In this document: positions 32,741 to 48,157 of the stretch, piece after piece
Layout of the letters: each line of letters opens with the position of its first letter
Numbering within the stretch: the stretch's first letter is position 1
Assembly: GCA_024644385.1 (NCBI GenBank)
Contig: JAHELB010000007.1
Location: 1 to 54,249 of the forward strand
Origin: Nitrosopumilaceae archaeon
Lineage (GTDB): Archaea > Thermoproteota > Nitrososphaeria > Nitrososphaerales > Nitrosopumilaceae
DNA: 54,249 nt
Reading direction: 5' to 3'
Translations under genes and position numbers: made by a program
Notes under the pieces: generated by a model
Databases searched by the model: none
Told to the model about the DNA's origin: nothing
The model's input: only the letters and a program-made list of their open reading frames with translations

Positions 32741-33508
32741 CTAATTAAATAAAAATAATTTATTTTCTAATCCAATTGTAAATACAATATTGATACCTAT
32801 AATGAAAGTTATACTTGCTATCGCATATTTTAGATATTTTGCGGCAGAACTTAATCTTGATACTAAAATAAATGGTAAGCCCAAAACTCCACTCGCAACA
32901 GTCATGCCGATAATACTGCCAATACCAAATAAAATTAAAAAGTAAATCATCATATCAAATCCTCCAATAGTTGATGCAGTCAAAGCTACAAGGCTTCCGC
33001 TCCCGGCAATACCATGAATACAACCAATTAGGTACGATTTATGGCCATGTTTGTGATTTTCAATATGATTATGAGAATGTGTGTGCGCAATCCCATTTGG
33101 GTGTGTGTGGGGATGAATATGTTTTGGTTTTAGGATACTTCGATTTGTAATTGTTAAAATTCCTAAAATAATCAACATAAAACCAACAAAAAATTCTGCA
33201 CTGACATAGAAATTATCTGGAATATTCAATGATAAACCGGCAATTAGTAATCCAATTAGAATAATACTTGAGGTATGTCCCATTCCCCAAAGTGCTCCTT
33301 TTAATGAGCTGTTTATGGTAAGACTCCTTAACCCTATTTTTTTTGAATTAGAGTAATGATTATTTTTTGTTAGTAGTTGAGTTGAGACTGCGCTTAAATG
33401 ATCAGGTTCAAAAGCATGTAACACGCCAATCATCAATCCTGCCATTAAAATTAGCAGTGGATTGTTAGCTTGTAACATTTCAATAAACATATCGAACAAT
33501 CCATTCAC
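32741..33508 (-). CDS. UreH/NicO-type nickel (or cobalt) permease
   Basis: A 255-residue protein with about six transmembrane helices. The metal-selectivity motif HAFEPDHLSA (31-40) corresponds to the Hx4DH signature of nickel/cobalt permeases, and a cytosolic or external loop (about 129-158) is His-rich (HIHPHTHPNGIAHTHSHNH). Last gene of an operon with the ureohydrolase. It probably supplies nickel for the urease 10 kb away and perhaps for the ureohydrolase itself. Confidence 0.88.
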   Translation of the reverse strand: MNGLFDMFIEMLQANNPLLILMAGLMIGVLHAFEPDHLSAVSTQLLTKNNHYSNSKKIGLRSLTINSSLKGALWGMGHTSSIILIGLLIAGLSLNIPDNFYVSAEFFVGFMLIILGILTITNRSILKPKHIHPHTHPNGIAHTHSHNHIENHKHGHKSYLIGCIHGIAGSGSLVALTASTIGGFDMMIYFLILFGIGSIIGMTVASGVLGLPFILVSRLSSAAKYLKYAIASITFIIGINIVFTIGLENKLFLFN

Positions 33509-33513
33509 CCACC

Positions 33514-33909
33514 CTACATAGTTTTTTCCTGCTCATGGAAAAAATATTGATTAATAGGAATTGGTGTCGAGATAGATATTAAATCACAATCATTATTTTT
33601 AGTTGAAATTAAAAAAGTTAATTTTCTCATGCTTTCGGGAACGCCAATCATAACCTGATTTGGAAAAAGAAGTTCAGGAATATTTTTTGTTATAAAATGG
33701 GTAGACTTTCCCTCATTTATTGAAGTTATAACATATGCCACATACAACCATAAGGTTTCATCCAGATTTAATCTCAAATTATTTCCAAGCCGTTTTTTTA
33801 TTACTTTTGTAGATTCAAAAAAGAGTAATTCATCAGATTTATCATAATGGAATATTTTGGAAATTGGTTTTATATCAGGATCTCCATGAACCAATAATTC
33901 AATTTTCAT
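33514..33909 (-). CDS. Hypothetical protein between ureohydrolase and nickel permease
   Basis: A 131-residue soluble protein with no motif I recognise. Two hydrophobic core strands (IELLVHGD, TLWLYVAYVITSI, KLTFLIST) suggest a compact alpha/beta fold. Its start overlaps the ureohydrolase stop by one base and its end lies 5 bases before the permease, so the three are co-translated. By analogy with nickel-enzyme clusters it could be a metallochaperone or assembly factor, but it lacks a His cluster. Confidence 0.65.
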   Translation of the reverse strand: MKIELLVHGDPDIKPISKIFHYDKSDELLFFESTKVIKKRLGNNLRLNLDETLWLYVAYVITSINEGKSTHFITKNIPELLFPNQVMIGVPESMRKLTFLISTKNNDCDLISISTPIPINQYFFHEQEKTM

Positions 33910-35024
33910 TAATCTCTCTTTGGTATTTTAGAAGCTGGATTGCCAAAATTGTATGTGTGTCCAGTTCCACGATAATCATTTGGCCTGACTGGATCTCCTC
34001 CCTCCAAACCTCTTTTTGTTAAGGATAAACCTGCTAACAACTCGATTACCAATCTCTGTCCCAATCCTGAAGTAATACCTCCATTGTAAGAACTCTGATC
34101 ACTTACATCATATGCTGGAGCAATCTCTACTAAATCCATTGCAAATCTGTCGGGATCAAAGGATTTTGATAAAAGGCGTATCATTCTAATCCCTTCTCTA
34201 GATGTTAGACCATTTGGTTCCGGTTCACCAGTACCGGGAGCATAAGCAGGATCAAAGGAATCAATATCCCAGCTTAGATAAACTGCATCAGTTCCATCAT
34301 TTGCTCTATCGGCGATTTCCTTTGCAATCAAATCGATTCCTAATTCTTCTACATCAAGCATGGTAAACCACTGAAAATCTTGATCTGACATCCATTTGTA
34401 CAAATCAGGTCCGGGCCAATAACCTCGTGGACCAACTAGTGAATAGTTTTTTCCTTTCAAACAGCCCATTTCCATAATTCGCCTAATATGGGCTCCATGG
34501 TCATATTTGTAGCCAGTTAGTCCTTGTGGGGCACAATCTGCATGAGTATCAAAATGAATCATCCCAATGTTTTTGTATTTTTTAGCAAAAGCTCTCACAT
34601 TTGCATATGTAATAGAATGGTCTCCTCCAAGCATTACTGGAATGCCATCTGCTTCTAGAACCTCCTTAACCTTTATGGTCATTCTCTTGTGAGATTCAAT
34701 AACATCGCCTGGCGAAACATGAACATCACCATAATCAACTGTCCGGAAAGTACCAAAAGGATCTGCACCGGTTTCAATGTTAAATCTTTCATATGGTGGT
34801 GATGGAATTGTTGAAGCAGCTCTAATTGCTCTTGGTCCATATCTTGCCCCAGGTCTAATAGTAGTTCCAAAGTCAAATGGTTCCCCAATAATTGCAACAT
34901 CAGGTTTAGCTTCAAGTAATTCTTTGTGGGATTTTATCCAAGGAAGGTGTAAGAATGTATTAATTCCTACAAAAGGAGCAACATCAGCTCCTCTAAAGTC
35001 ATCCCCATAAAATTCCATTCCCAT
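33909..35024 (-). CDS. Arginase/agmatinase-family ureohydrolase
   Basis: A binuclear metal hydrolase of 371 residues, about 60 longer than typical agmatinase (extra N-terminal 40 and C-terminal 20). All metal ligands are visible: H136 in GGDHSIT, D159/H161/D163 in HFDTHADC, and D253/D255 in WDIDSFDPAYAPGTGEP. The Thr in DTH replaces the usual Ala or Ser. It releases urea from a guanidino compound: agmatine is the default guess, guanidine, arginine or guanidinobutyrate are alternatives. It heads an operon with a nickel permease and lies near a urease, so urea produced here could feed ammonia oxidation. Confidence 0.88.
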   Translation of the reverse strand: MGMEFYGDDFRGADVAPFVGINTFLHLPWIKSHKELLEAKPDVAIIGEPFDFGTTIRPGARYGPRAIRAASTIPSPPYERFNIETGADPFGTFRTVDYGDVHVSPGDVIESHKRMTIKVKEVLEADGIPVMLGGDHSITYANVRAFAKKYKNIGMIHFDTHADCAPQGLTGYKYDHGAHIRRIMEMGCLKGKNYSLVGPRGYWPGPDLYKWMSDQDFQWFTMLDVEELGIDLIAKEIADRANDGTDAVYLSWDIDSFDPAYAPGTGEPEPNGLTSREGIRMIRLLSKSFDPDRFAMDLVEIAPAYDVSDQSSYNGGITSGLGQRLVIELLAGLSLTKRGLEGGDPVRPNDYRGTGHTYNFGNPASKIPKRD

Positions 35025-35112: not shown

Positions 35113-36417
35113 ATGAAAAACCAAAGTTTATGTAATATACGATTTAACTATAAAAATAATATTTGGATTAAAATACATATGATTTTAAAAAATTCTAAAA
35201 ATGCTTGGTATTATTTGAATCAGGGTTTAACGGCAGTCTATTACAATGAATTTAAAAAAGCAGTTTCAAAATTTAATAAAGCGAGTTCCTTGGAACCTGA
35301 AAATATAGTTATACAACTTCATAAAGGAACAACCTTGCATAAAATGGAAGATTATAAAAAAGCAATAATTTGTTTTGATCATGTCCTATCCGTAGATCCC
35401 AAAAACATAGATGCGTTGTATAACAAAGGACTTGCTCTACAAAAAATAGGGAATTTTGATGAGGCCATCATATTGTTCAAAGAATCTCTAAAGATTGATT
35501 CAAATTTTTTAGATTCCTTGATATCAATGGGATTATGTTTGAGTAATCTAGGTCGTAATAAGGAGGCGCTAAAAATAACTGATAAAGTCTTGATAAAAAA
35601 TCAAAAACACACAACTGCCCTTTATAATAAAAGTCTAATTTTAGGACGATTAGGGCTAAATTCTGAGGCGGTTTCCTTTTTAAAAAAGGCCATAGAGGAA
35701 GATTCTCGACAATCGAATATCCTTTATGAAAAAGGCCAAAAACTTGCAAAGCAGAAAAAACATGAGGAGGCTATAAAATTCTATACTAAGGCACTTGAAA
35801 TAGATCGTAAAAACACCAAAGCCCTTGTAGCAAAGGGTTGGACTCTTGATTTTGCTGGATTTGGAAACAAAGATATTTTTGCTTTTTACGACAGGGCTAT
35901 TGAAATTGATCCTAAATGTACTGAGGCGTTATTAAATAAAGGTCTAGTTTTGGACAGAACTGGCCAATATAAAAAGGCCATTGAGTGTTTTGATAGAATT
36001 ATTGAATATGACCCAAAAAATGTTAGAGCACTTTACAGTAAAGGTGTATCACTTTCATCTCTAAAAAAGTTTGGTGAGGCTAGATTTTATTGTGAATGTG
36101 CCATTGAGCTTGATCCAAAAAACGTATTTGCCCTTTGTAGTATGGTCTGGTTTTTAGAGCATTCAAAAAAATATAACGAAGCTCTAGTTTATTGTGAAAA
36201 AGCTTTGAAGATAAATCCAAATTATGTCTATGCAATAAGCTATAAAGGAAAATTACTTTTATCGTTAAAAAGATATGAGGAATCCATCGTTTGGTATAGC
36301 AAAGCATTGAAACTAGATCCCGAAAATCAAACAGCAATTTATCACAAAAATAAGGCAGAAGATGAACTAGAGAAATTAAAAAAAGAGTCACTCTTGAAAA
36401 AACTCTCCAAGTTATAA
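35113..36417 (+). CDS. Tetratricopeptide-repeat protein
   Basis: About eleven TPR units of 34 residues fill the protein from residue 30 to 425; typical units read KAIICFDHVLSVDPKNIDALYN and EAIKFYTKALEIDRKN. TPR solenoids bind partner proteins. No enzymatic domain or signal peptide is seen; the first 22 residues before Met23 (35179) may not be translated. Confidence 0.85.
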   Translation: MKNQSLCNIRFNYKNNIWIKIHMILKNSKNAWYYLNQGLTAVYYNEFKKAVSKFNKASSLEPENIVIQLHKGTTLHKMEDYKKAIICFDHVLSVDPKNIDALYNKGLALQKIGNFDEAIILFKESLKIDSNFLDSLISMGLCLSNLGRNKEALKITDKVLIKNQKHTTALYNKSLILGRLGLNSEAVSFLKKAIEEDSRQSNILYEKGQKLAKQKKHEEAIKFYTKALEIDRKNTKALVAKGWTLDFAGFGNKDIFAFYDRAIEIDPKCTEALLNKGLVLDRTGQYKKAIECFDRIIEYDPKNVRALYSKGVSLSSLKKFGEARFYCECAIELDPKNVFALCSMVWFLEHSKKYNEALVYCEKALKINPNYVYAISYKGKLLLSLKRYEESIVWYSKALKLDPENQTAIYHKNKAEDELEKLKKESLLKKLSKL

Positions 36418-36485: not shown

Positions 36486-36737
36486 ATGCAAAGTGTTAGC
36501 ACTCCGGAAGATATCAAAAGAGAATCAAGTAGGGTAATCAATGCCCTCTATGGAAATGTTACCGACTTCAGGGTAAATGAAACATTCGAAATTCCCGAAA
36601 AGGGACCAAGAGAAGCATGGGATGTTCAAGTTAATTTCATGTTAAATTCTTTGAAATACACTGTGGACCTAGAAATTCAAGAAAAAGATGGACAAGTCAC
36701 CAATGCACGGCTAATTGACACTATGACCCCACTCTAA
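36486..36737 (+). CDS. Small hypothetical protein
   Basis: An 83-residue protein with an N-terminal helix (TPEDIKRESSRVINALYG) and a beta-hairpin C-terminal half (AWDVQVNFMLNSLKYTVDLE). The pattern suggests a small alpha/beta domain. ATG start, single gene. Not recognised. Confidence 0.65.
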   Translation: MQSVSTPEDIKRESSRVINALYGNVTDFRVNETFEIPEKGPREAWDVQVNFMLNSLKYTVDLEIQEKDGQVTNARLIDTMTPL

Positions 36738-36764: not shown

Positions 36765-37277
36765 TTAAATTGTGAGAATTTCCCTGGCAGCTTTAATCTT
36801 TCCAAATAAACCATTTACGTAGCCATCGACAAATCGTTCAAAGCTTATATTTTCTTGAAAATTATTCTTTTGTTTTTGGTACTCCTTTTGAAGACTTTTG
36901 AAATCTTCCTCCCGTAAGTGAATCGCATGTTTATTTGCATCATATTTTGATTCAAGTAAATTTATTATAAAATAGCTTACAAATTTTGTAAAGCACTTTG
37001 CCCTGTATTTTTCTTCATATTCCTCCCTAAGTATTTCTTGGTTTTCCTCTAACCATTCCTGAACATCAGATCGTATTGTAATAGTATTGTAATGACCCGT
37101 CAAATCTAACTTTATTTCATGGGGTTCGACCGAGTAATATCCTCTCTTTACTTCATTCATCATAATTATCAGAGTACTTGGAAGAAACATACCTGGATAG
37201 TTTTTATCAGTAACCTCTTGTAATCGAGCAGTCACTGCAGGTTTCATTCCTACAGTAGCATATCCTTTTCCAGGCAT
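36765..37277 (-). CDS. Ribbon-helix-helix-type DNA-binding protein with two RHH-like segments
   Basis: A 170-residue protein. Residues 5-46 look like a ribbon-helix-helix fold (GYATVGMKPAVTARLQEVTD), and residues 66-112 repeat the pattern (NTITIRSDVQEWLEENQEIL with a second helix KCFTKFVSYFIINLL). A single chain could thus form the dimeric DNA-binding unit. The C-terminal 55 residues are helical and charged. Target unknown; it stands alone between two gaps. Confidence 0.7.
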   Translation of the reverse strand: MPGKGYATVGMKPAVTARLQEVTDKNYPGMFLPSTLIIMMNEVKRGYYSVEPHEIKLDLTGHYNTITIRSDVQEWLEENQEILREEYEEKYRAKCFTKFVSYFIINLLESKYDANKHAIHLREEDFKSLQKEYQKQKNNFQENISFERFVDGYVNGLFGKIKAAREILTI

Positions 37278-37831: not shown

Positions 37832-39421
37832 ATGGTGGAAATGTCTGGTTTTGGCATTGCAGTTGCCGCCTTTATTATAATTACACTTGTAGTTGGTGTG
37901 TTTGCAGGGAAATTAGTCAAGAATAGCGGCAAACGATTGATAGTTGCTGGAAAAAGTTTGCCCTTAGCAATGGTTGGTACGATGCTAGCAGCACAAGCAG
38001 TTGATGGAAATTCTTCGCTAGGTAATGTAGCTTTGGTATTTGAATTTGGATTTTGGGCTGGAGCGGTTATTCCATTAGGTCTCGGATTATGTTTGCTAGT
38101 AACCGCAGCATTCTATGCTAAACCATTAAACAAAATGTCAATGATTACTTTACCTGATTTTTATTTTAGAAGATTTGGAAACGGGGCAGAAGGGATTTCT
38201 GGTGTTCTTATGATAATTAGTTTTCTAGTTCTAGTTGCGGGAAACTTGGCTGCAAGCGGATTTATTTTGGAAGTCGTTTTTGGTATCGATTATTTCTGGG
38301 GAATAACAATTTCTGCTCTAGTGGTTGTTGCATATACAATTGCAGGTGGCTTGTTTGCCTCAGCTTATACAAATTTGTTTCAGGTCTATCTTGCGATAGG
38401 GTCATTCTGGGCAGGATTCCTTTTCTTTGCCGGCGGTTTTTCAGATGTTCCATGGGATGTCATTTACAATAACGCTCCTCCAGAATTTATGGATCTTTCC
38501 GGATTATATGATATTGCAAATGGAGCACTAATCAATTGGGGAGCTATTTTAGCACTAGGTTTGGGGGATATTGTTGCTTTAGACTTCATGGAGAGAGTAT
38601 TTGCTGCTCGTAGTCCAAAAACTGCAAGGAGAGGTGCATTGATGGGAGGTGCTCTTACTTTATTCACGGTAGTTCCAACAAGCATGTTGGGAATTGTAGC
38701 ATTTTACTATTTGCCAGGGGATACATTACCTGATTTGGCACTACCTTTGTTATCGACTGAATTTATGCCCTTTGCAATTGGTGCATCAATACTGATGGGA
38801 GTAATTGGAGCATCAATGTCTACTGCCAGTGGAGGACTATTAGCAATATCTAGTGTAGTTTCTAGGAATATGGTCCAGAGAATCATTAGAAGGCGTTGGA
38901 TGGGAAAACCCAACTGGAGTGATAAAAAATTACTAGGAGTTACACGATTGGCAATAATTCCAATGATGGTGGCAGGAACAACCTTAGGTTATTTCGTACC
39001 GGCACCAGGAATATATCTTATTCTTGCCTTTGACATAGTCTTTGCAGGAGCATTTGCACCATTGACCTTCGGGTTATTCTGGAAAAAAGCTAACATGCCA
39101 GCAGCAATTGCATCTCTTCTTGTCGGCTCAGGGTTGCGATTATACTTCTTCTTTACAATGCCAGAGGAATGGGCAGGTTTGGATACAATGATACCTCCAG
39201 TGGTTTCGTTTGTCTTGTTTATTGTAGTAGCACTTGCAACCCAGAACAAATATCCAGGTAAAGCCAGACATGATGTAAGAGATTATGTTCCACCGGAGGA
39301 GGATGTAATTACAGGAGAAGATCTAAAACACTTCAATGAGGGCAGTGATGCTATGCCAGGTGGACAGAACTCGAACACATCGGGTCCTGATGAAGACATT
39401 GAAAGTAAAAACACAGTGTAA
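37832..39421 (+). CDS. Sodium:solute symporter family transporter, possible urea carrier
   Basis: About 13 transmembrane helices, 529 residues, LeuT-like SSS fold with the family segment GGLFASAYTNLFQVYLAIGSF and SMSTASGGLLAISSVVSRN. The C-terminal 50 residues are acidic and cytosolic. SSS proteins (DUR3 type) carry urea in several urease-containing ammonia oxidizers, and this one lies 4 kb from the urease operons on the same side, which makes urea a reasonable substrate; other solutes cannot be excluded. A long inverted repeat sits in its promoter. Confidence 0.82.
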   Translation: MVEMSGFGIAVAAFIIITLVVGVFAGKLVKNSGKRLIVAGKSLPLAMVGTMLAAQAVDGNSSLGNVALVFEFGFWAGAVIPLGLGLCLLVTAAFYAKPLNKMSMITLPDFYFRRFGNGAEGISGVLMIISFLVLVAGNLAASGFILEVVFGIDYFWGITISALVVVAYTIAGGLFASAYTNLFQVYLAIGSFWAGFLFFAGGFSDVPWDVIYNNAPPEFMDLSGLYDIANGALINWGAILALGLGDIVALDFMERVFAARSPKTARRGALMGGALTLFTVVPTSMLGIVAFYYLPGDTLPDLALPLLSTEFMPFAIGASILMGVIGASMSTASGGLLAISSVVSRNMVQRIIRRRWMGKPNWSDKKLLGVTRLAIIPMMVAGTTLGYFVPAPGIYLILAFDIVFAGAFAPLTFGLFWKKANMPAAIASLLVGSGLRLYFFFTMPEEWAGLDTMIPPVVSFVLFIVVALATQNKYPGKARHDVRDYVPPEEDVITGEDLKHFNEGSDAMPGGQNSNTSGPDEDIESKNTV

Positions 39422-39519: not shown

Positions 39520-41211
39520 ATGAAATATCCTGATTTGCTTGATCAAGATATTTCACGAGTTGGATTACAAGAATCACAAAAATATAATTTACTTTCATGT
39601 AGACTTGTAACGGAAATAGTAAAAACCTCCTTAGGTCCAAGAGGTATGGAAAAAATGTATATCGACATTCTTGGGGAAGATTCAATAACAAAACATGGCG
39701 GAGCTTTCTTAAGAAAAGTTGATGTGGTTCAACCTGCAGCCAAGTCTGTAATAGAGGCTGTAAACACAGTTGATACTCACGTCGGAGATGGTACAACCTC
39801 AACTGCAATTGTGATGGGAAGCTTACTCCGTCATGCTGAAGAGTTGTTAAAATTGGGAATTCCCGTTGCGGTAATTACAAGAGGTTATGAGAAAAGTCTA
39901 GATTTTGCTTTAGAGGCATTAGATGAAATAAAAATAAAATCTAATAGAAGTGATAAAGAAACAATGAAGCAATTGCTAATAACTTGCTTAGAAGGAAAGG
40001 CAATTTTCGATTTACAAGAAGAGAATATAAAAATTATTGACCTTATCATTGAGGCTGTATTTGATATAGCCAACTTTAATCGTGGTCAGATAAATGTTGA
40101 TGACATAAAAATTGAAGAAAAAATAGGAAATCTCACAGATATACAATTGGTTAAAGGCACCGTTATTGACAAGACGATAGATAGTTCGGCAATGCCCAGA
40201 ACAATCAATGATGCCAAAATTTTGCTGATAAATGAATCCTTAGAACCAATGAGGACCAAAACAGAGGCAGGGATAGAAATAGAATCACCAGAACAAATGA
40301 GTCAATTTTTTGACCAAGAAAATAAAGACTTGCTTGCACTTGTAAAAAGTATTTCAGAATCAGGAGCTAATGTGGTAATTTCCAGAAAAGGAGTAAATGA
40401 ATTTGTTCAGGAGGCTCTAGCAAAAAAGGGAATAATTTCGATGCGCAGAGTCAAGTATAATGATTTATGGTGGTTGGAAAAGGCGACTGGTGCAAAAACC
40501 TGTAAGGATGTTGAGAAAATATCTAGTGATGAATTAGGTTTTGCAAAAAAGGTTTATGAGAAAACTACTGGAGGTGAAAAAATGGTTTTTGTGGAAGGCG
40601 GGGATAATCCAAAATCTGTAACTTTGTTATTGAGAGCCAACTCAAAACGATATCTAGATGAATTTCACAGAAATGTTCTAAACGCATTTTATGTTTTAAG
40701 AAACTTTATTGAAAACCCATTCATTATACATGGGGCTGGGTCAGTAGAATGGATAATAGCTCAAAAAATAAGACAAAAAGCTGTTAGCGTCGAAGGAAAG
40801 GAACAAATTGCAATAGAAAGGTTTGCAGATGCCTTAGAGCAGATACCGTTAACTTTGGCACAAAATATAGGAATGGATGTTTTAGACACATTAACACAAT
40901 TACGAAAAAAATTTTCAGAGTCAAATGGCAAAATGAAATGGTATGGTATAGATTCTAACAGGAGAAAAATATTAGATATTGCCTCATTGGGAATTATTGA
41001 AACGGTGGTGGTAAAGCAGCAGGTTCTCAAAACTGCGGTGGAGGCAAGTAATATGATACTTAACGTAGATGATGTTTTCATGAAGGATTTAATTGACAAT
41101 ACGCATTGTCATATTGATGGAACAGTCCATGCCCATCATGACGGTGGAAAATCTCATAATCATTTTGAACAAGAAGGACTTGAGCAAAGACAAATGCATC
41201 ATTATTACTAA
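39520..41211 (+). CDS. Degenerate group II chaperonin (thermosome-like) with His-rich tail
   Basis: A full-length thermosome homologue (563 residues): LGPRGMEKM (38-46), GDGTTS (89-94), and VVVKQQVLKTAVEASNMILN (497-515) are conserved. The ATP site is altered. The usual NDGAT reads KHGGA (58-62), and the catalytic Asp of the HDAL-type motif is Asn388. The C-terminal GGM tail is replaced by a His-rich one (529-561, nine His, including THCHIDGTVHAHHDG). It may be an ATPase-poor folding or metal-holding factor. It sits between the symporter and the urease locus, so a nickel-related role is possible. Confidence 0.9.
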   Translation: MKYPDLLDQDISRVGLQESQKYNLLSCRLVTEIVKTSLGPRGMEKMYIDILGEDSITKHGGAFLRKVDVVQPAAKSVIEAVNTVDTHVGDGTTSTAIVMGSLLRHAEELLKLGIPVAVITRGYEKSLDFALEALDEIKIKSNRSDKETMKQLLITCLEGKAIFDLQEENIKIIDLIIEAVFDIANFNRGQINVDDIKIEEKIGNLTDIQLVKGTVIDKTIDSSAMPRTINDAKILLINESLEPMRTKTEAGIEIESPEQMSQFFDQENKDLLALVKSISESGANVVISRKGVNEFVQEALAKKGIISMRRVKYNDLWWLEKATGAKTCKDVEKISSDELGFAKKVYEKTTGGEKMVFVEGGDNPKSVTLLLRANSKRYLDEFHRNVLNAFYVLRNFIENPFIIHGAGSVEWIIAQKIRQKAVSVEGKEQIAIERFADALEQIPLTLAQNIGMDVLDTLTQLRKKFSESNGKMKWYGIDSNRRKILDIASLGIIETVVVKQQVLKTAVEASNMILNVDDVFMKDLIDNTHCHIDGTVHAHHDGGKSHNHFEQEGLEQRQMHHYY

Positions 41212-41560: not shown

Positions 41561-41809
41561 ATGAAAATAAATTTGAATGAAAAAAAAATAGAAGAGTATA
41601 AAGAAATTTTTGATTTTATTGAAAAAACCCGTCCTGATTGGGAGAGATTAATAATAGATGATAACTTTAAAATTAAAACCAATCAAGAAAAAGTACAATT
41701 TTCAACCATAGACCAAATTTTGAAAAAATTTAACCTTAGAATTACTGAAATTTCATTTTCAGATTATTATGGTATTACTTTTGGAATTGAAAAACTGGAA
41801 AATGTTTAG
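41561..41809 (+). CDS. Small hypothetical protein
   Basis: An 82-residue charged protein with an N-terminal helix (EKKIEEYKEIFDFIEKTRPD) and a short beta-rich C-terminus (LRITEISFSDYYGITFGIEK). ATG start and no neighbours in the same operon. Not recognised. Confidence 0.6.
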   Translation: MKINLNEKKIEEYKEIFDFIEKTRPDWERLIIDDNFKIKTNQEKVQFSTIDQILKKFNLRITEISFSDYYGITFGIEKLENV

Positions 41810-41901: not shown

Positions 41902-42843
41902 ATGATCGAACCAGGTCGCGCAGTCAAAGATATTGAAATTGATTCAAACACATCCATAGAACAAATTTTTGAAGAGTTATCTCAATCAGGGGGTTTTGAA
42001 TCGGTGAATCTTTCAGAAGGCCTGGAAATTTTAACAAAAATGATTTCAGATGATCAATGTCTCAGATTTGTCTCATTTGTAGCAGCTCTAGTATCGACGG
42101 GGACTAGGGGAATCATCAAAAATATGATCAAAAACAAGTGGTTTGATGTTGTCATTACAACATGTGGAGCCTTAGATCATGATATTGCCAAACATTTCTC
42201 ACATTACAAAGAAGGTTCCTTTACTATGGATGACCAAGAATTGATGGACCAGAACATACACCGACTAGGTAATGTTTTGGTACCTATGGATAGTTATGGG
42301 CCAATTATTGAAGACAAAATGCAGGTATTCTTAGAAGAAGAATATCAAAATGGGAAAAAAGAAATGACTACTGCAGAAATAACTAAAATGATTGGAAAGC
42401 ATCTAGGAGAAGATTCATTTCTTTTTTGGGCTTACAAAAATGATATCCCTGTAGTTGTTCCAGGAATTATGGATGGAGCCGTAGGAAGTCAAATTTGGCT
42501 TTTCACACAAAAACATCATGATTTCAAACTAAACATTATAGGTGATGCAGAACTGCTTTCTGGATTAATTTTCAAAGCAAAAAAATCAGGCGCCTTTATG
42601 ATTGGGGGAGGAATTTCAAAACACCATACCTTATGGTGGAACCAATATAGAGAAGGATTAGATTATGCCTTTTATATTACAACTGCACAAGAGTTTGACG
42701 GAAGTCTTAGTGGAGCTTTGGTTAAAGAGGCAATTTCTTGGGGCAAGGTAACACAACAAGCAAAACAGACAACACTTCATGCCGAAGTCACAACAATATT
42801 ACCATTTATCTATGCCGGACTTATTTCAAAATTAAAAAAATAG
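41902..42843 (+). CDS. dys: Deoxyhypusine synthase
   Basis: A NAD-dependent enzyme of 313 residues that moves the aminobutyl group of spermidine onto a lysine of initiation factor aIF5A. The active-site Lys240 is in GGGISKHHTLWWN, with TTAQEFDGSLSGA, VSTGTRG and the NAD-side CGALDHDIAKH present. It uses polyamine, linking it loosely to the ureohydrolase family enzyme upstream if that makes putrescine. Leaderless-type promoter likely. Confidence 0.95.
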   Translation: MIEPGRAVKDIEIDSNTSIEQIFEELSQSGGFESVNLSEGLEILTKMISDDQCLRFVSFVAALVSTGTRGIIKNMIKNKWFDVVITTCGALDHDIAKHFSHYKEGSFTMDDQELMDQNIHRLGNVLVPMDSYGPIIEDKMQVFLEEEYQNGKKEMTTAEITKMIGKHLGEDSFLFWAYKNDIPVVVPGIMDGAVGSQIWLFTQKHHDFKLNIIGDAELLSGLIFKAKKSGAFMIGGGISKHHTLWWNQYREGLDYAFYITTAQEFDGSLSGALVKEAISWGKVTQQAKQTTLHAEVTTILPFIYAGLISKLKK

Positions 42844-42901: not shown

Positions 42902-43828
42902 TTAATTTTTTCTTGTTCTACTAAATGATCCCCCTAGAATTTTTTTTCTACTGATTTCAAGGATTTTAGAAATCACATCAAAAATATTTTCAGTTTTATT
43001 TCCTAAAATTCTTATTATTATTCCAGATTCATCTGGTAAAATAGAGGTTCCAACCGAAACTTCTTCTATTTTTCTAACTGTTTGATTTATAGAATTTTCC
43101 AAATCAATTACATTCTCCTTACTAGTTAAAACGTAAACTGTTCCCACGGTGTTAAATTCTCCTAATATTCCAAAATCTTTTAATCGCTGTTTTTTAGGCT
43201 CGATTTTGGTATTTTCTAAAAATCTAATTTTTTTATCTTGATTCTTACAATGGGTTCGAAGATAACAGATGTCATATACAAACGATTCTCCCATGGCGAC
43301 TCTTCCTGGAGTTAAAATTTCAGAATAAATCAAGGTGGAGTTTTCGTGAACCTTGAGATGTACCTTTTGATAATATCTAGAGTTTTTGTATGGGATTATT
43401 TGATCAGGGATATATTCAAGATAACAATCTTCATCGACAGTAATGTTTACAATTTGTGATGCAGAATTTGAATTCATACTGTAAACTCTTGTAGCTCCCT
43501 GAGTGGTAATATGGGAGATGGCTTTATTTTTTAATTTCACATCTGTTCGGTATCTATCTCCCTGAAGAATTCCACCCGATGGAGAAATAACATAAAGATA
43601 TGCCATTTGTGGTAAGGAAATTTCAGGATATAATGCACGTTGTATTTGTAACGGAATTTGGAAAAACTGTTTTGTAACAATTGTTTTGCCTGTATTATTC
43701 ATTTGTAGTTCCAAATCAAGAATTCCTACTTTTCCAGATTGTCCAACTGCCAACTGTTTTACAGGAGCCTCATAGGCTTGGATTTCCTTTGGTATGTCAT
43801 CTGGTGTATAATAATCTAGTTTATTCAA
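42902..43828 (-). CDS. ureD: Urease accessory protein UreD
   Basis: A 308-residue UreD/UreH-type assembly factor; the beta-helical core includes PQMAYLYVISPSGGILQGDRY, which is the family hallmark, and TTQGATRVYSMNSN. It forms the UreDFG complex that delivers nickel to apo-urease. Start is a TTG at 43828, 3 bases after ureG, and last gene of the ureEFGD unit. Confidence 0.94.
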   Translation of the reverse strand: MNKLDYYTPDDIPKEIQAYEAPVKQLAVGQSGKVGILDLELQMNNTGKTIVTKQFFQIPLQIQRALYPEISLPQMAYLYVISPSGGILQGDRYRTDVKLKNKAISHITTQGATRVYSMNSNSASQIVNITVDEDCYLEYIPDQIIPYKNSRYYQKVHLKVHENSTLIYSEILTPGRVAMGESFVYDICYLRTHCKNQDKKIRFLENTKIEPKKQRLKDFGILGEFNTVGTVYVLTSKENVIDLENSINQTVRKIEEVSVGTSILPDESGIIIRILGNKTENIFDVISKILEISRKKILGGSFSRTRKN

Positions 43829-43831
43829 GAA

Positions 43832-44488
43832 TCAAACCTTTTGTGTAATTGTAGATTTTGGTAAAGAACCAAATAAAACATCATGGATGATATGTTCCGC
43901 TACATCCAAAACACCTTCATCTGTTTTGCAGTTGATAAATACAAACGGTTTTTCTTTTCGATTTATTTCTGCATCTCTCTGCATTAGTTTTAGATCTGCA
44001 CCCACCATAATTGCAAGGTCAATTTTGTTTATCACTAAAAGATCACAACTCTCAATTCCTAAACCACCCTTTCTTGGATATTTGTCTCCACCTGCAACAT
44101 CAATTATGTAAATAAAATAATCTGCAAGAATTGGACTAAAGGTGGTGGTAATATTATCTCCACCGCTTTCAATAATTATTAAATCAAGGTCAGGATGGTT
44201 CGACTCCAATTCCTCTATCACAGACAGATTCATGGAAGGATCTTCTCTTATCGCAGTATGAGGACAACCTCCTGTAGCCAGTCCTATGACTAGGTTTTCA
44301 GGAAGTAATCCCTTTTTTGTGGCTAAATTAGTCCTCATCCTATCTGCATCTTCTTTTGAAATTACATCATTTGAGATAATGCTTACACTGTATCCTTTTT
44401 CAGCCAAAATTGGAACAAAGCGTTCAATGAGCATACTTTTTCCAGAACCTACTGGTCCTCCAATACCAATTCTTGGAATACGAGTCAT
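43832..44488 (-). CDS. ureG: Urease accessory GTPase UreG
   Basis: A SIMIBI-class GTPase of 218 residues with P-loop GPVGSGKS (11-18), the nickel/urease motif GGCPHTAIRED (CPH is the Ni-binding site), IIESGGDN, and NKIDLA for guanine. It energises nickel insertion with UreD and UreF. 17 bases separate it from ureF. Confidence 0.97.
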   Translation of the reverse strand: MTRIPRIGIGGPVGSGKSMLIERFVPILAEKGYSVSIISNDVISKEDADRMRTNLATKKGLLPENLVIGLATGGCPHTAIREDPSMNLSVIEELESNHPDLDLIIIESGGDNITTTFSPILADYFIYIIDVAGGDKYPRKGGLGIESCDLLVINKIDLAIMVGADLKLMQRDAEINRKEKPFVFINCKTDEGVLDVAEHIIHDVLFGSLPKSTITQKV

Positions 44489-44505
44489 GATAAAAAATTC
44501 AATTT

Positions 44506-45207
44506 TTATGTTATAAACATTTTAGAGTCCATCTTTTCATGGGACATCTGAACAACATCTACTTGTGGTGCAAACTGCCACATTTCTAAAATAGATTTAT
44601 TTGAATATTCTCTAATAGTTTGACCTATAATGGGTTTAATGCTGTGAATTATTTTTTGACTTTCAAAATGCTGAATTAATCCGAGTCGTAATGCGGCACC
44701 GATAACCCCCACAGTAAAACCATACAACATCATTGCCATACTTTTCTCTTTTGTAATTTTTAAGGAATGACATCCTATAGCATACGCCACGGGAAAAACT
44801 CCATGGGTTTGGTTGTCAGTTATGCTCTCTTTGTATTGATTTAATATTTTATTGTCTTTTACAAATTCTGACACACATTTTATAAATTGCATACCTGATC
44901 TTACAGATGCATTACGAATTTCTTTGATGGATTTTGAAGCAAAAACTAGATTATCAACCTCTATTATTTTTTTCAGATCATAATTGTTTGCATTATCCAT
45001 TACATTTGCAAGCGCAACACAATCTGTTGGTCCAATTTGCTGAATAATATTAATTCTAATTAGATCAATTAGGTCTACGGTTCCCTGAATTTTTTTTTCA
45101 TTAAAAAGAAATTCCAATCCATTTGAAGTAGTAAAAATACCAGTGGGAAAGAAGGAATCAGACAATTGCATTACTCCTAACTCTTGCTCAATTTCGTCAA
45201 TGCTCAT
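44506..45207 (-). CDS. ureF: Urease accessory protein UreF
   Basis: An all-helical UreF of 233 residues with the opening QLSDSFFPTGIFTTSNGLE and HGVFPVAYAIGC. It bridges UreD and UreG. The ATG at 45207 is chosen since GGTG lies 7 bases upstream; a longer start at 45219 would add four residues. It overlaps the end of ureE. Confidence 0.93.
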   Translation of the reverse strand: MSIDEIEQELGVMQLSDSFFPTGIFTTSNGLEFLFNEKKIQGTVDLIDLIRINIIQQIGPTDCVALANVMDNANNYDLKKIIEVDNLVFASKSIKEIRNASVRSGMQFIKCVSEFVKDNKILNQYKESITDNQTHGVFPVAYAIGCHSLKITKEKSMAMMLYGFTVGVIGAALRLGLIQHFESQKIIHSIKPIIGQTIREYSNKSILEMWQFAPQVDVVQMSHEKMDSKMFIT

Positions 45208-45682
45208 GAATATCACCACCTGAATTTGGGTAAAATACTTGTTCCTTTATGGTCATCTCAATATGTGTAATAAAATCCCCAAATAGTTTTGAAAAAAGTT
45301 CCTTTTCGGATTCGGTCTGAATAGGAAACAAAAACTCTTCTCCTTGTATAGATACGGGTCTATGCCTATTTCCAATAATATGGCCTAAAAGAAACATCAA
45401 TTCAGGCTTGTTTTTCGTCTTGAGTTTAAATGAAATTACCTTTTCGGGTAATTGTTCTAAAACAATTTTTTTGTCCTTGTTTTTGAAAATATCTCCATCA
45501 CGAAGTTTTACTCCTGGGTCTAATTTCCAACCCACATCCGTTCCAAGATCAGTCTTTCTTCTCAAAATTCTTTTTTCTAAATCTATTCGTGAAATCTTAA
45601 TTTTTTCAAAATTCATGTTTTTAAAATATTTAAATTCTTTATCGTGAAAAATATTTCCAATCGGTGAATTAACCTCTAACAC
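45197..45682 (-). CDS. ureE: Urease accessory nickel chaperone UreE
   Basis: A 161-residue UreE with the peptide-binding domain ([18 protein letters not shown]) and the metal-binding domain ([13 protein letters not shown]); the tail GGDIHEH is a short His tip. It hands nickel to UreG. Start is GTG at 45682 with TATA-like GTATAAC 25-30 bases upstream (minus strand, 45706-45712), so it is the first, leaderless gene of ureEFGD. Confidence 0.92.
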
Positions 45683-45771
45683 AAATTACTTTGTATAATG
45701 ACAGAGTTATACTTTTTTGGATTCCTTTCAAATTTTTAATTATTAAATACCACAGTAGGCTATCAATTTCA
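45683..45771. promoter_or_regulatory. Shared divergent promoter region of ureEFGD and ureABC
   Basis: The 89-base gap holds one TATA-like box for each direction: GTATAAC (complement at 45706-45712) before ureE and TTAAATA (45743-45749) about 25 bases before the ureA ATG. No clear dyad is seen. The arrangement makes simultaneous control of enzyme and nickel-assembly genes likely. Confidence 0.6.
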
Positions 45772-46074
45772 ATGATGCTTACTCCTAGAGAATTAGAAAA
45801 GCTAAATGTTTTTGTAACCAGTGAACTTGCTAGAAGAAGACAAAAACGGGGATTAAAACTAAACCATCCCGAAGCCGTTGCCATACTTGCTGATCATATT
45901 TTAGAAGGAGCTAGAGATGGTAAAAATGTCTCTGAATTAATGAGTTCTGGAAAAAAAGTTTTATCAAAAAATGACGTCTTGCCTGGTGTTTCAGATCTAA
46001 TTCATTCTATTCAAGTGGAAGCAACTTTTGAAGATGGAACCAAGCTGGTAACAGTTCACGACCCTATCGTGTGA
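45772..46074 (+). CDS. ureA: Urease gamma subunit
   Basis: A 100-residue subunit beginning [17 protein letters not shown] and containing [19 protein letters not shown], with [18 protein letters not shown] at the end. ATG at 45772 (or 45775) is used rather than the upstream in-frame start at 45691, which would add a foreign leader and cross the promoter. Its stop overlaps the ureB region. Confidence 0.96.
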
Positions 46075-46079
46075 GAAAT

Positions 46080-46445
46080 ATGATTCCAGGCGAATATTTT
46101 CCATCAAGTGAATCAATAATTGCCAATGTTGGTAAATCCACGACATCAGTTAAAGTTAGCAATACGGGGGATAGGCCCATTCAAGTAGGATCACATACCC
46201 ATTTTTTTGAAGTAAATAAGGCACTTGAATTTCCAAGAAAACAATCCTACGGGTATCATCTCAATATTCCTTCCGGAACTTCGATAAGATTTGAACCCGG
46301 AGAAACCAAAAGAATTGAACTGACCGAATTTGGAGGCAAAAAAATAGTTTTTGGGTTAAGTGGTTTGGTTAATGGACACCTAAAAGAAAAACAAGAAGAT
46401 GCATTCAAAAAAGCAAAAGAAATGGGGTTTAAGGGAATTACATAA
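46080..46445 (+). CDS. ureB: Urease beta subunit
   Basis: A 121-residue subunit with the classic [11 protein letters not shown] start, [19 protein letters not shown], and [20 protein letters not shown] at 46080 is preferred over an overlapping GTG at 46071. Shares one base with the ureC start, so the three structural genes are coupled. The beta and gamma subunits stay separate, unlike the fused forms in plants and Helicobacter. Confidence 0.97.
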
Positions 46446-48157
46446 TGGCTCTAACTATTCCGCGAAAAACCTATGTTGATTTGTTTGGTCCAACGGTTGG
46501 CGATAGGGTTCGTCTGGCTGATACTGATTTGATTATAGAGATTGAAAAAGACTTGATCAAATATGGAGATGAGGCGGTATTTGGCGGTGGAAAGAGCGTA
46601 CGAGACGGGCTAGGACAATCAAGTGGAGTGTCAAGAGCTGAATCAGTTGACCTGGTAATTACTAATGCAATTGTAATGGATCCTATTTTGGGAATTATTA
46701 AGGCCGATATTGGAATAAAGGATGGAAAAATTGTGGGGGTAGGAAACGCAGGAAATCCCAACATAATGGATGACGTTGATTTTATAATTTCCTCAAATAC
46801 GGAAATTATTGCTGGTGAACATACCATTTGTACTCCAGGAACTATTGACTCACACATTCATTTTATTTCTCCTCAACAAGCTGTTCATGCAATTTGTAAT
46901 GGTACTACCACAATGATTGGTGGTGGAACTGGTCCGGCTGATGGAACAAATGCAACAACATGTACTCCAGGTAAATGGAATATTCATAGAATGCTTGAAT
47001 CAGTCGATGGAATACCAATGAACTTTGGTTTTCTTGCAAAAGGAAATGACTCTCTTCAAACTGCACTACTTGAACAAATAGAAGCAGGCGCTTGTGGCCT
47101 AAAACTGCATGAAGATTGGGGTTCAACTCCTGCAGTAATTGATTCTGCATTAAATGTTGCAGATAAAACGGACACTCAAGTAGCAATTCATACAGATACT
47201 CTAAATGAATGTGGGTTTGTTGATGATACCATCAAGGCTATTGCAGGCAGAACCATACATACCTATCACACTGAGGGAGCGGGAGGGGGTCATGCTCCCG
47301 ATATCATAAAAATAGCTGGTGAAGAAAACATACTTCCTTCATCGACAAATCCTACTAGACCTTTTACAATAAACACATTGGCTGAACACCTTGATATGAT
47401 GATGGTATGCCATCATCTGAACCCTTCAGTCCCAGAGGACGTATCATTTGCAGAATCCAGAATACGAGGAGAAACCATTGCAGCAGAGGACGTATTGCAT
47501 GATTTGGGAGTTTTGAGTATGATGTCTTCAGATAGTCAAGCAATGGGAAGAGTAGGTGAAGTTGCACTCAGAAATTGGCAAACAGCAGATAAGATGAAAA
47601 AGATGACAGGTAAATTACCGCAAGACAATGAAAGAAATGATAATTTTAGAGTAAAGAGATACCTTGCAAAAATCACAATAAATCCTGCCATAACTCATGG
47701 AGTCTCAGATTACGTAGGTTCCCTACAACCAGGAAGATTGGCAGATATTGTGATTTGGTCTCCTCAATTCTTTGGAGTAAAGCCAAAAATGATTATCAAA
47801 GGCGGATTTATTGCGTATTCACTAATGGGAGACCCAAATGCTTCAATTCCTACCACCGAGCCAGTACTTTATCGCCCAATGTTCGGAGCACTTGGTCAAA
47901 CAAAACATTCCACGTCTGTAACCTTCACATCTCAACTGGCATTAGATAATGGCCTTGAATCAGAAATAAAATCAAAAAAGAAATTGGTTCCAGTAAAAAA
48001 CTGTCGTTCTATTGGAAAAAAAGACATGTTGTATAATGATCTTGCCCCAAACATCGAGGTAAATCCTGAAACTTATGAAGTGAAAGTTGATGGAAAACTT
48101 GCTACTGTAAATCCAGCAGAGAGGATTTCCCTATCACGACTCTATCATTTATTTTAA
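46445..48157 (+). CDS. ureC: Urease alpha (catalytic) subunit
   Basis: 570 residues with an intact bis-nickel site: H137 and H139 (DSHIHF), K220 to be carbamylated ([10 protein letters not shown]), H249, H275 and D363 (SSDSQAMGR), and catalytic H323 in the flap (VCHHLNPSV). These numbers are shifted by exactly 3 from the Klebsiella enzyme. It hydrolyses urea to ammonia and carbamate, giving the organism an ammonia source for oxidation. Confidence 0.98.

Follow-up and report, generated by a model that had tools for sequence, protein, structure and literature searches.

We describe a His-tailed group II chaperonin (CHAPhis; 563 aa, ATG start, positions 39520–41211, forward strand) encoded in the window, i.e. 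in the whole stretch of 54,249 nt analysed here. In our main reading, to which we give a probability of roughly 0.45, CHAPhis would be a paralogous chaperonin specific to ammonia-oxidising archaea (AOA) and specialised for one genomic island, where it would serve the metal-loaded folding or assembly of the metalloenzyme of this island. The His-tailed chaperonins form one clade with an invariant tail; residues of the ATPase site have been lost repeatedly, and the gene co-occurs with, and is closely linked to, a ureohydrolase gene. As the chaperonin travels with the urea-releasing enzyme and not with urease itself, a dedicated folding machine handling a metal, probably nickel, is suggested.

Domain, fold and ATPase residues

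The Pfam domain Cpn60_TCP1 spans residues 30–521 of CHAPhis (449 bits), and the closest sequence relatives in PDB are group II chaperonins. The AlphaFold model (mean pLDDT 79) has a chaperonin fold with a disordered tail; in the Foldseek search it matched Mm-cpn (3ruq; E 3.9e-42, TM 0.77) and also thermosomes (TM ∼0.8). Scores against the NCBIfam thermosome models were above the cut-off for the alpha equivalog (495 versus 450) and for beta (484.5 versus 400), and below it for TIGR02339 (488 versus 671). Homology to group I proteins (GroES/GroEL1) was not found: GroEL models gave at most 53 bits, the group II models 484–495. The same genome encodes two canonical thermosomes, both without a His tail. 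CHAPhis has in common with canonical thermosomes the fold, the order of domains and the LGPRG and GDGT loops; what sets its clade apart is the His tail in place of the GGM tail, the frequent loss of the Asp of NDGAT and/or of the catalytic Asp, and the separate position in the tree.

In alignment with canonical thermosomes the NDGAT motif is KHGGA in CHAPhis, with His59 (codon 39694–39696, forward strand) replacing Asp; the catalytic Asp of ‘RSIHDSL’ is replaced by Asn388 (codon 40681–40683, forward strand; seen also in the tree analysis), and GGGA.E has become GAGSVE. A sequence-only reading of this DNA had pointed to both substitutions, to the retained chaperonin fold and GDGTT loop, and to a tail with nine His instead of the GGM-type one; all these features were borne out, the fold by Pfam, PDB relatives, AlphaFold and Foldseek, the loop and the substitutions by the alignment, the tail by translation and alignment. 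The same reading called the protein catalytically degenerate, which stands for the window protein, where neither Asp is present, and fails as a property of the family, where the loss is patchy and secondary. Both Asp are kept in most copies from Nitrososphaeraceae; in Nitrosocosmicus-like copies the catalytic position is taken by Ser, in Nitrosotalea-like ones just the Asp of NDGAT is lost, and the clade of the window protein has lost both. Each of the two positions requires about four changes on the tree. Loss of ATPase residues as the defining feature of the family was thus ruled out, since many equally tailed copies keep both Asp; as the tailed clade is one group and the Asp losses are repeated, the tail predates the decay of the ATPase and is the more constant of the two. 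His383 (codon 40666–40668), shortly before the catalytic position, is a further difference from canonical thermosomes, whose residue here is Glu or Asp; within the His-tailed clade the conservation of this His is 98%.

The histidine tail and its spread

The tail occupies residues 529–563 (41104–41208, forward strand) and follows the pattern HxHxDGxxHxH...H...QRxxHHYY. Its nine His (529, 531, 537, 539, 540, 546, 548, 560 and 561) fall into the last 45 residues; at the His frequency of 1.7% observed in the body of the clade's proteins, the binomial probability of at least nine His in 45 residues is ∼6e-8. The set comprised 92 distinct homologues. The motif HxHxDGxxHxH...H...QRxxHH is missing from three of them, two cut by contig ends and one interrupted copy; the other 89, whose C-termini are intact, all have it. 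Among 48 diverse sequences His 529, 531, 537, 539, 546 and 560 are invariant, and the residues of QR..HHYY other than His are likewise invariant or nearly so. Columns conserved to at least 95% make up 32% of the tail and 15% of the body, a twofold difference. The sequence comparison thus supports strong purifying selection on the tail. Six Nitrososphaera copies (L098, L104, L107, L183, L054 and L059) carry a second His cluster, 14–16 His in 40 aa, in the body near residue 330.

The His-tailed proteins make a single clade (SH-aLRT 99) confined to AOA, with homologues in two AOA families. Two short peptide patterns, run against 84 980 species genomes of the GTDB collection, yielded 69 loci, with no match outside AOA; the loci were labelled Nitrosopumilus, Nitrosopelagicus, Nitrosarchaeum, Nitrosotenuis, Nitrosotalea, Cenarchaeum, Nitrososphaera, Nitrosocosmicus or, less specifically, Thaumarchaeota/Nitrososphaeria. 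A short DNA pattern for HHYY was dropped as a search probe over 400 genomes, its matches being far too frequent.

Gene content of the island

The set of genes recurring around the chaperonin consists of a ureohydrolase, a urease-gamma-like protein (uAL), a PutP-like symporter of 529 aa, two small conserved proteins (p83 and p170), a TPR protein and the chaperonin itself. In the window the symporter gene, of the SSS family (37832–39421, forward strand), lies 98 bp upstream of the chaperonin gene on the same strand. The ureohydrolase (UHY; 371 aa, arginase family, 33909–35024, reverse strand) is agmatinase-like, with scores below the NCBIfam cut-offs; uAL (131 aa, 33514–33909, reverse strand), assigned by profile and fold, adjoins it. 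The TPR-repeat protein (35113–36417, forward strand) was found as an ORF and in 28 of the 69 neighbourhoods. Near-constant members by comparison of neighbourhoods are p83 (36486–36737, forward strand) and p170 (36765–37277, reverse strand; no family match), two unannotated proteins that recur in 23 of the 24 loci whose flanks were long. Downstream of the chaperonin there follow p82, a small protein seen as an ORF here and at this place in close relatives (41561–41809, forward strand), and deoxyhypusine synthase, a frequent neighbour (41902–42843, forward strand). Next come the urease accessory genes ureD, ureG, ureF and ureE (42902–45682, reverse strand), named by similarity and recurring beside ureABC in related loci, and the structural genes ureA, ureB and ureC (45691–48157, forward strand), with the urease alpha family match at 46454. 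Urease genes adjoin the island in many loci, not in all. A UreE from a Nitrososphaeraceae-like genome (G199; L078:4689–5423, reverse strand) has 39 His in its 244 residues.

On the other side of uAL there is a gene for a membrane protein with the signature HAFEPDH and a His-rich loop (32741–33508, reverse strand). It had no Pfam or NCBIfam match, and from its motif we take it to be a probable nickel transporter of the UreH type. Nickel-transporter-like genes of two unrelated types (HAFEPDH and RHALDADHI) recur in the islands; such a gene is frequent, yet not near every copy of the chaperonin. Because of these neighbouring transporters and of urease, nickel is favoured as the metal that the tail would bind; His tails can also bind Cu, Zn or Co.

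The symporter had been taken for a possible urea symporter in the sequence-only reading. This label is doubtful, because all 23 genomes at least 95% complete that have urease and lack UHY are also devoid of the 529-aa protein (six of them carry a relative of ∼780 aa with 23–25% identity); judging by these sequences it is probably not the urea symporter. In the same 23 genomes p83 was not detected either.

Association with ureohydrolase and with urease

Co-occurrence was counted in 400 genomes of the class Nitrososphaeria. Chaperonin and ureohydrolase were both present in 79 genomes, chaperonin alone in 4, ureohydrolase alone in 7 and neither in 310 (phi 0.92); for chaperonin and urease phi was 0.60. 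As linked genes may both be missed in incomplete genomes, the count was redone in the 136 genomes with completeness of at least 95%, giving 40, 0, 2 and 94 genomes, respectively (phi 0.97). Ureohydrolase without the His-tailed chaperonin was seen in G206 (97% complete) and G015 (99% complete); most apparent ureohydrolase-only genomes do carry a chaperonin gene, either split into several matches by insertions or cut by contig ends. The four genomes with chaperonin and no detected ureohydrolase are 69–84% (three genomes) and 93% complete. Chaperonin and ureohydrolase covary inside many mixed genera, which limits shared ancestry as a confounder and does not remove it.

The two genes also stay close to each other. 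They share a contig in 62 of 73 cases, every time at a distance of no more than 12.8 kb, while chaperonin and ureC share a contig in 42 of 66 cases, with distances up to 2.2 Mb. In genome G037 the chaperonin gene and the ureohydrolase gene both occur twice, as two linked pairs, with just one ureC present. Around chaperonin, ureohydrolase and symporter in six loci of Nitrososphaeraceae (L079, L080, L083, L084, L085 and L088) there was no urease gene within the 10–18 kb examined.

The sequence-only reading had tied the chaperonin to the urease locus, as a possible store or donor of nickel. As an account of urease alone, for which the chaperonin would store nickel or which it would help to activate, we consider this idea unlikely. 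It is true that urease is present in all 40 carriers of the chaperonin among genomes at least 95% complete, so that in this set the same tail was not seen in any urease-negative relative (seven chaperonin-bearing genomes without a urease match are all <95% complete). The idea keeps some weight, because ∼17 of the 69 loci have the chaperonin as the last gene, straight after ureEFGD and on the same strand; some Nitrososphaeraceae have it in divergent orientation to ureABC, no more than ∼1 kb apart. Presence of urease in all high-quality genomes with the island is expected if the ureohydrolase releases urea. The chaperonin is missing from 25 of 65 urease-positive genomes at least 95% complete, and it was found in none of the 23 such genomes that have urease and lack ureohydrolase; in several genomes urease is 88 kb to 2.2 Mb away from the chaperonin with ureohydrolase within 13 kb. 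Urease was therefore set aside as the driver of the association; it accompanies the chaperonin, and the gene being tracked is the ureohydrolase.

Furthermore, in Nitrososphaerales an Hsp60 other than CHAPhis belongs to the main urease operon. For Nitrosocaldus and Nitrososphaerales, Abby et al. (2018) reported that the urease locus includes a homologue of Hsp60, absent in Nitrosopumilales (PMC5797428). Like CHAPhis, it is encoded beside urease genes in AOA; unlike CHAPhis, it is very divergent, has no His tail, keeps both Asp and sits on a far branch. Identity of the two proteins was ruled out by sequence and by the tree, where they fall into separate clades (both supports ≥99). Untailed divergent Cpn60 genes were seen directly beside ureC in main urease operons of Nitrososphaeraceae- or Nitrosocaldus-like genomes (L074:5210–6784, L081:6626–8176 and L077:6750–8309, all on the reverse strand).

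The ureohydrolase and the urease-gamma-like protein

UHY is 78–99% identical over its full length across most island-bearing AOA and retains GGDHS, HFDTHAD and SWDIDSFDP. Most ureohydrolases use Mn. The residues reported as specific for guanidinases are Thr 97 and Trp 305 (PMC11410670). At the first of these positions UHY has mostly Ala (RPGARYGP in 42 of 48 sequences) and at the second Glu (PGTGEPEP in all 47 readable ones); identity of UHY with the guanidinase GdmH was thus ruled out. As both guanidinase residues are missing, neither nickel dependence of UHY nor its substrate follows from homology. GdmH of Synechocystis and Nitrospira inopinata is similar to UHY in being of the ureohydrolase family, a nickel enzyme feeding urea and ammonia metabolism. 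It differs in that its nickel loaders are GhaA and GhaB, which are HypA/B-like, whereas the putative partner of UHY is a chaperonin. For the comammox guanidinase Palatinszky et al. could not find nickel-loading chaperones (PMC11410670).

The likeness of uAL to urease gamma was seen both in the profile search (2e-13) and in a fold match to urease (2kau_A, 4.6e-7). A free-standing uAL beside the ureohydrolase is kept across islands.

Relation to known systems

By analogy, Helicobacter pylori HspA appears to be a close counterpart of CHAPhis: it belongs to the chaperonin system, is extended at the C-terminus by a His-rich stretch and has a nickel and urease context (PMC3856676). HspA, though, is a GroES co-chaperonin of unrelated fold with a His/Cys-rich tail, and the tail of CHAPhis is on a group II barrel subunit. 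Mycobacterial GroEL1, a paralogue of a barrel chaperonin with a His tail, was proposed to act in metal homeostasis (PMC10170517); it is, in contrast, a group I actinobacterial protein, reported with copper and not tied to a ureohydrolase island.

One could ask whether the CHAPhis barrel simply buffers nickel or copper with no client, as was proposed for the HspA and GroEL1 tails; we find such storage or detoxification improbable, to about the same degree as a role for urease alone. Removal of the HspA tail impairs hydrogenase, not urease maturation, and affects nickel content (PMC3856676), and the GroEL1 tail binds Cu (PMC10170517). The His tail with the second His cluster and the repeated loss of ATPase residues agree with storage as well. 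Near-perfect tracking of one metabolic gene, on the other hand, would be unexpected for a general metal buffer, and the chaperonin body and apical domain, well folded and conserved, would be needless for pure storage.

Archaeal thermosomes and CCT are hetero-oligomers. This, together with the full group II fold and the constancy of QR..HHYY, would suit a specialised subunit co-assembling with canonical thermosome subunits, its tail being a contact with the client or within the assembly and not a metal site, but we regard this as the least probable reading, as HxH pairs that alternate without variation and a His cluster inserted independently agree better with metal binding and the longer branch to the His-tailed clade (0.94 versus 0.26 for canonical subunits) suggests a separate role.

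Parts of the island have been met before. The hadal MAG MTA1 encodes, close to urease and a Na+/solute symporter, an additional thermosome that stands apart in phylogeny and was read as an adaptation to pressure (PMC7265257). This thermosome very likely belongs to the His-tailed clade; the main text of that paper mentions neither ‘histidine’ nor ‘agmatinase’ and makes no remark on tail, ATPase or ureohydrolase. In soil AOA an SSS transporter was linked with ‘agmatinase’, the chaperonin not being mentioned (PMC11131427). Among the papers searched, none was found on the His tail of this gene, its ATPase loss or its link to ureohydrolase.

A possible role in the use of organic nitrogen

In group II chaperonins the C-termini are located within the barrel, close to its equator. 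If CHAPhis is specialised for the metalloenzyme of its island, the fixed His motif would hold nickel or a similar divalent metal within the chamber, and the client, most likely the ureohydrolase with uAL and possibly urease too, would be folded or assembled in this metal-loaded chamber. The PutP-like symporter may import a guanidino-type compound, which the ureohydrolase would cleave to urea, with urease converting urea to ammonia. ATP hydrolysis could be dispensable for this role in some lineages, where it would have decayed repeatedly while the tail did not.

A bolder version, which we hold to be rather doubtful, is a dedicated nickel-loading barrel, lined on the inside with a conserved lattice of metal-binding His, that metallates and assembles a ureohydrolase/urease-gamma-like enzyme not characterised before. 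If true, nickel maturation would here be achieved by a system with no relation to HypA/B, UreE/G or GhaA/B, and AOA would have a route to live on guanidino compounds. Given the observations of Palatinszky et al. (PMC11410670), nickel loading of ureohydrolases is an open problem in itself.

Few nitrifiers rival AOA in abundance, and which organic nitrogen AOA can use is an open question; the association described here indicates a well-delimited island, open to testing, in which urea would be made from a different compound. The clade also offers a natural experiment, with the ATP cycle decayed and a metal-type tail fixed across comparable lineages. If the metal role holds, group II chaperonins would have been reused as metallochaperones, in parallel to HspA and GroEL1 and independently of them.
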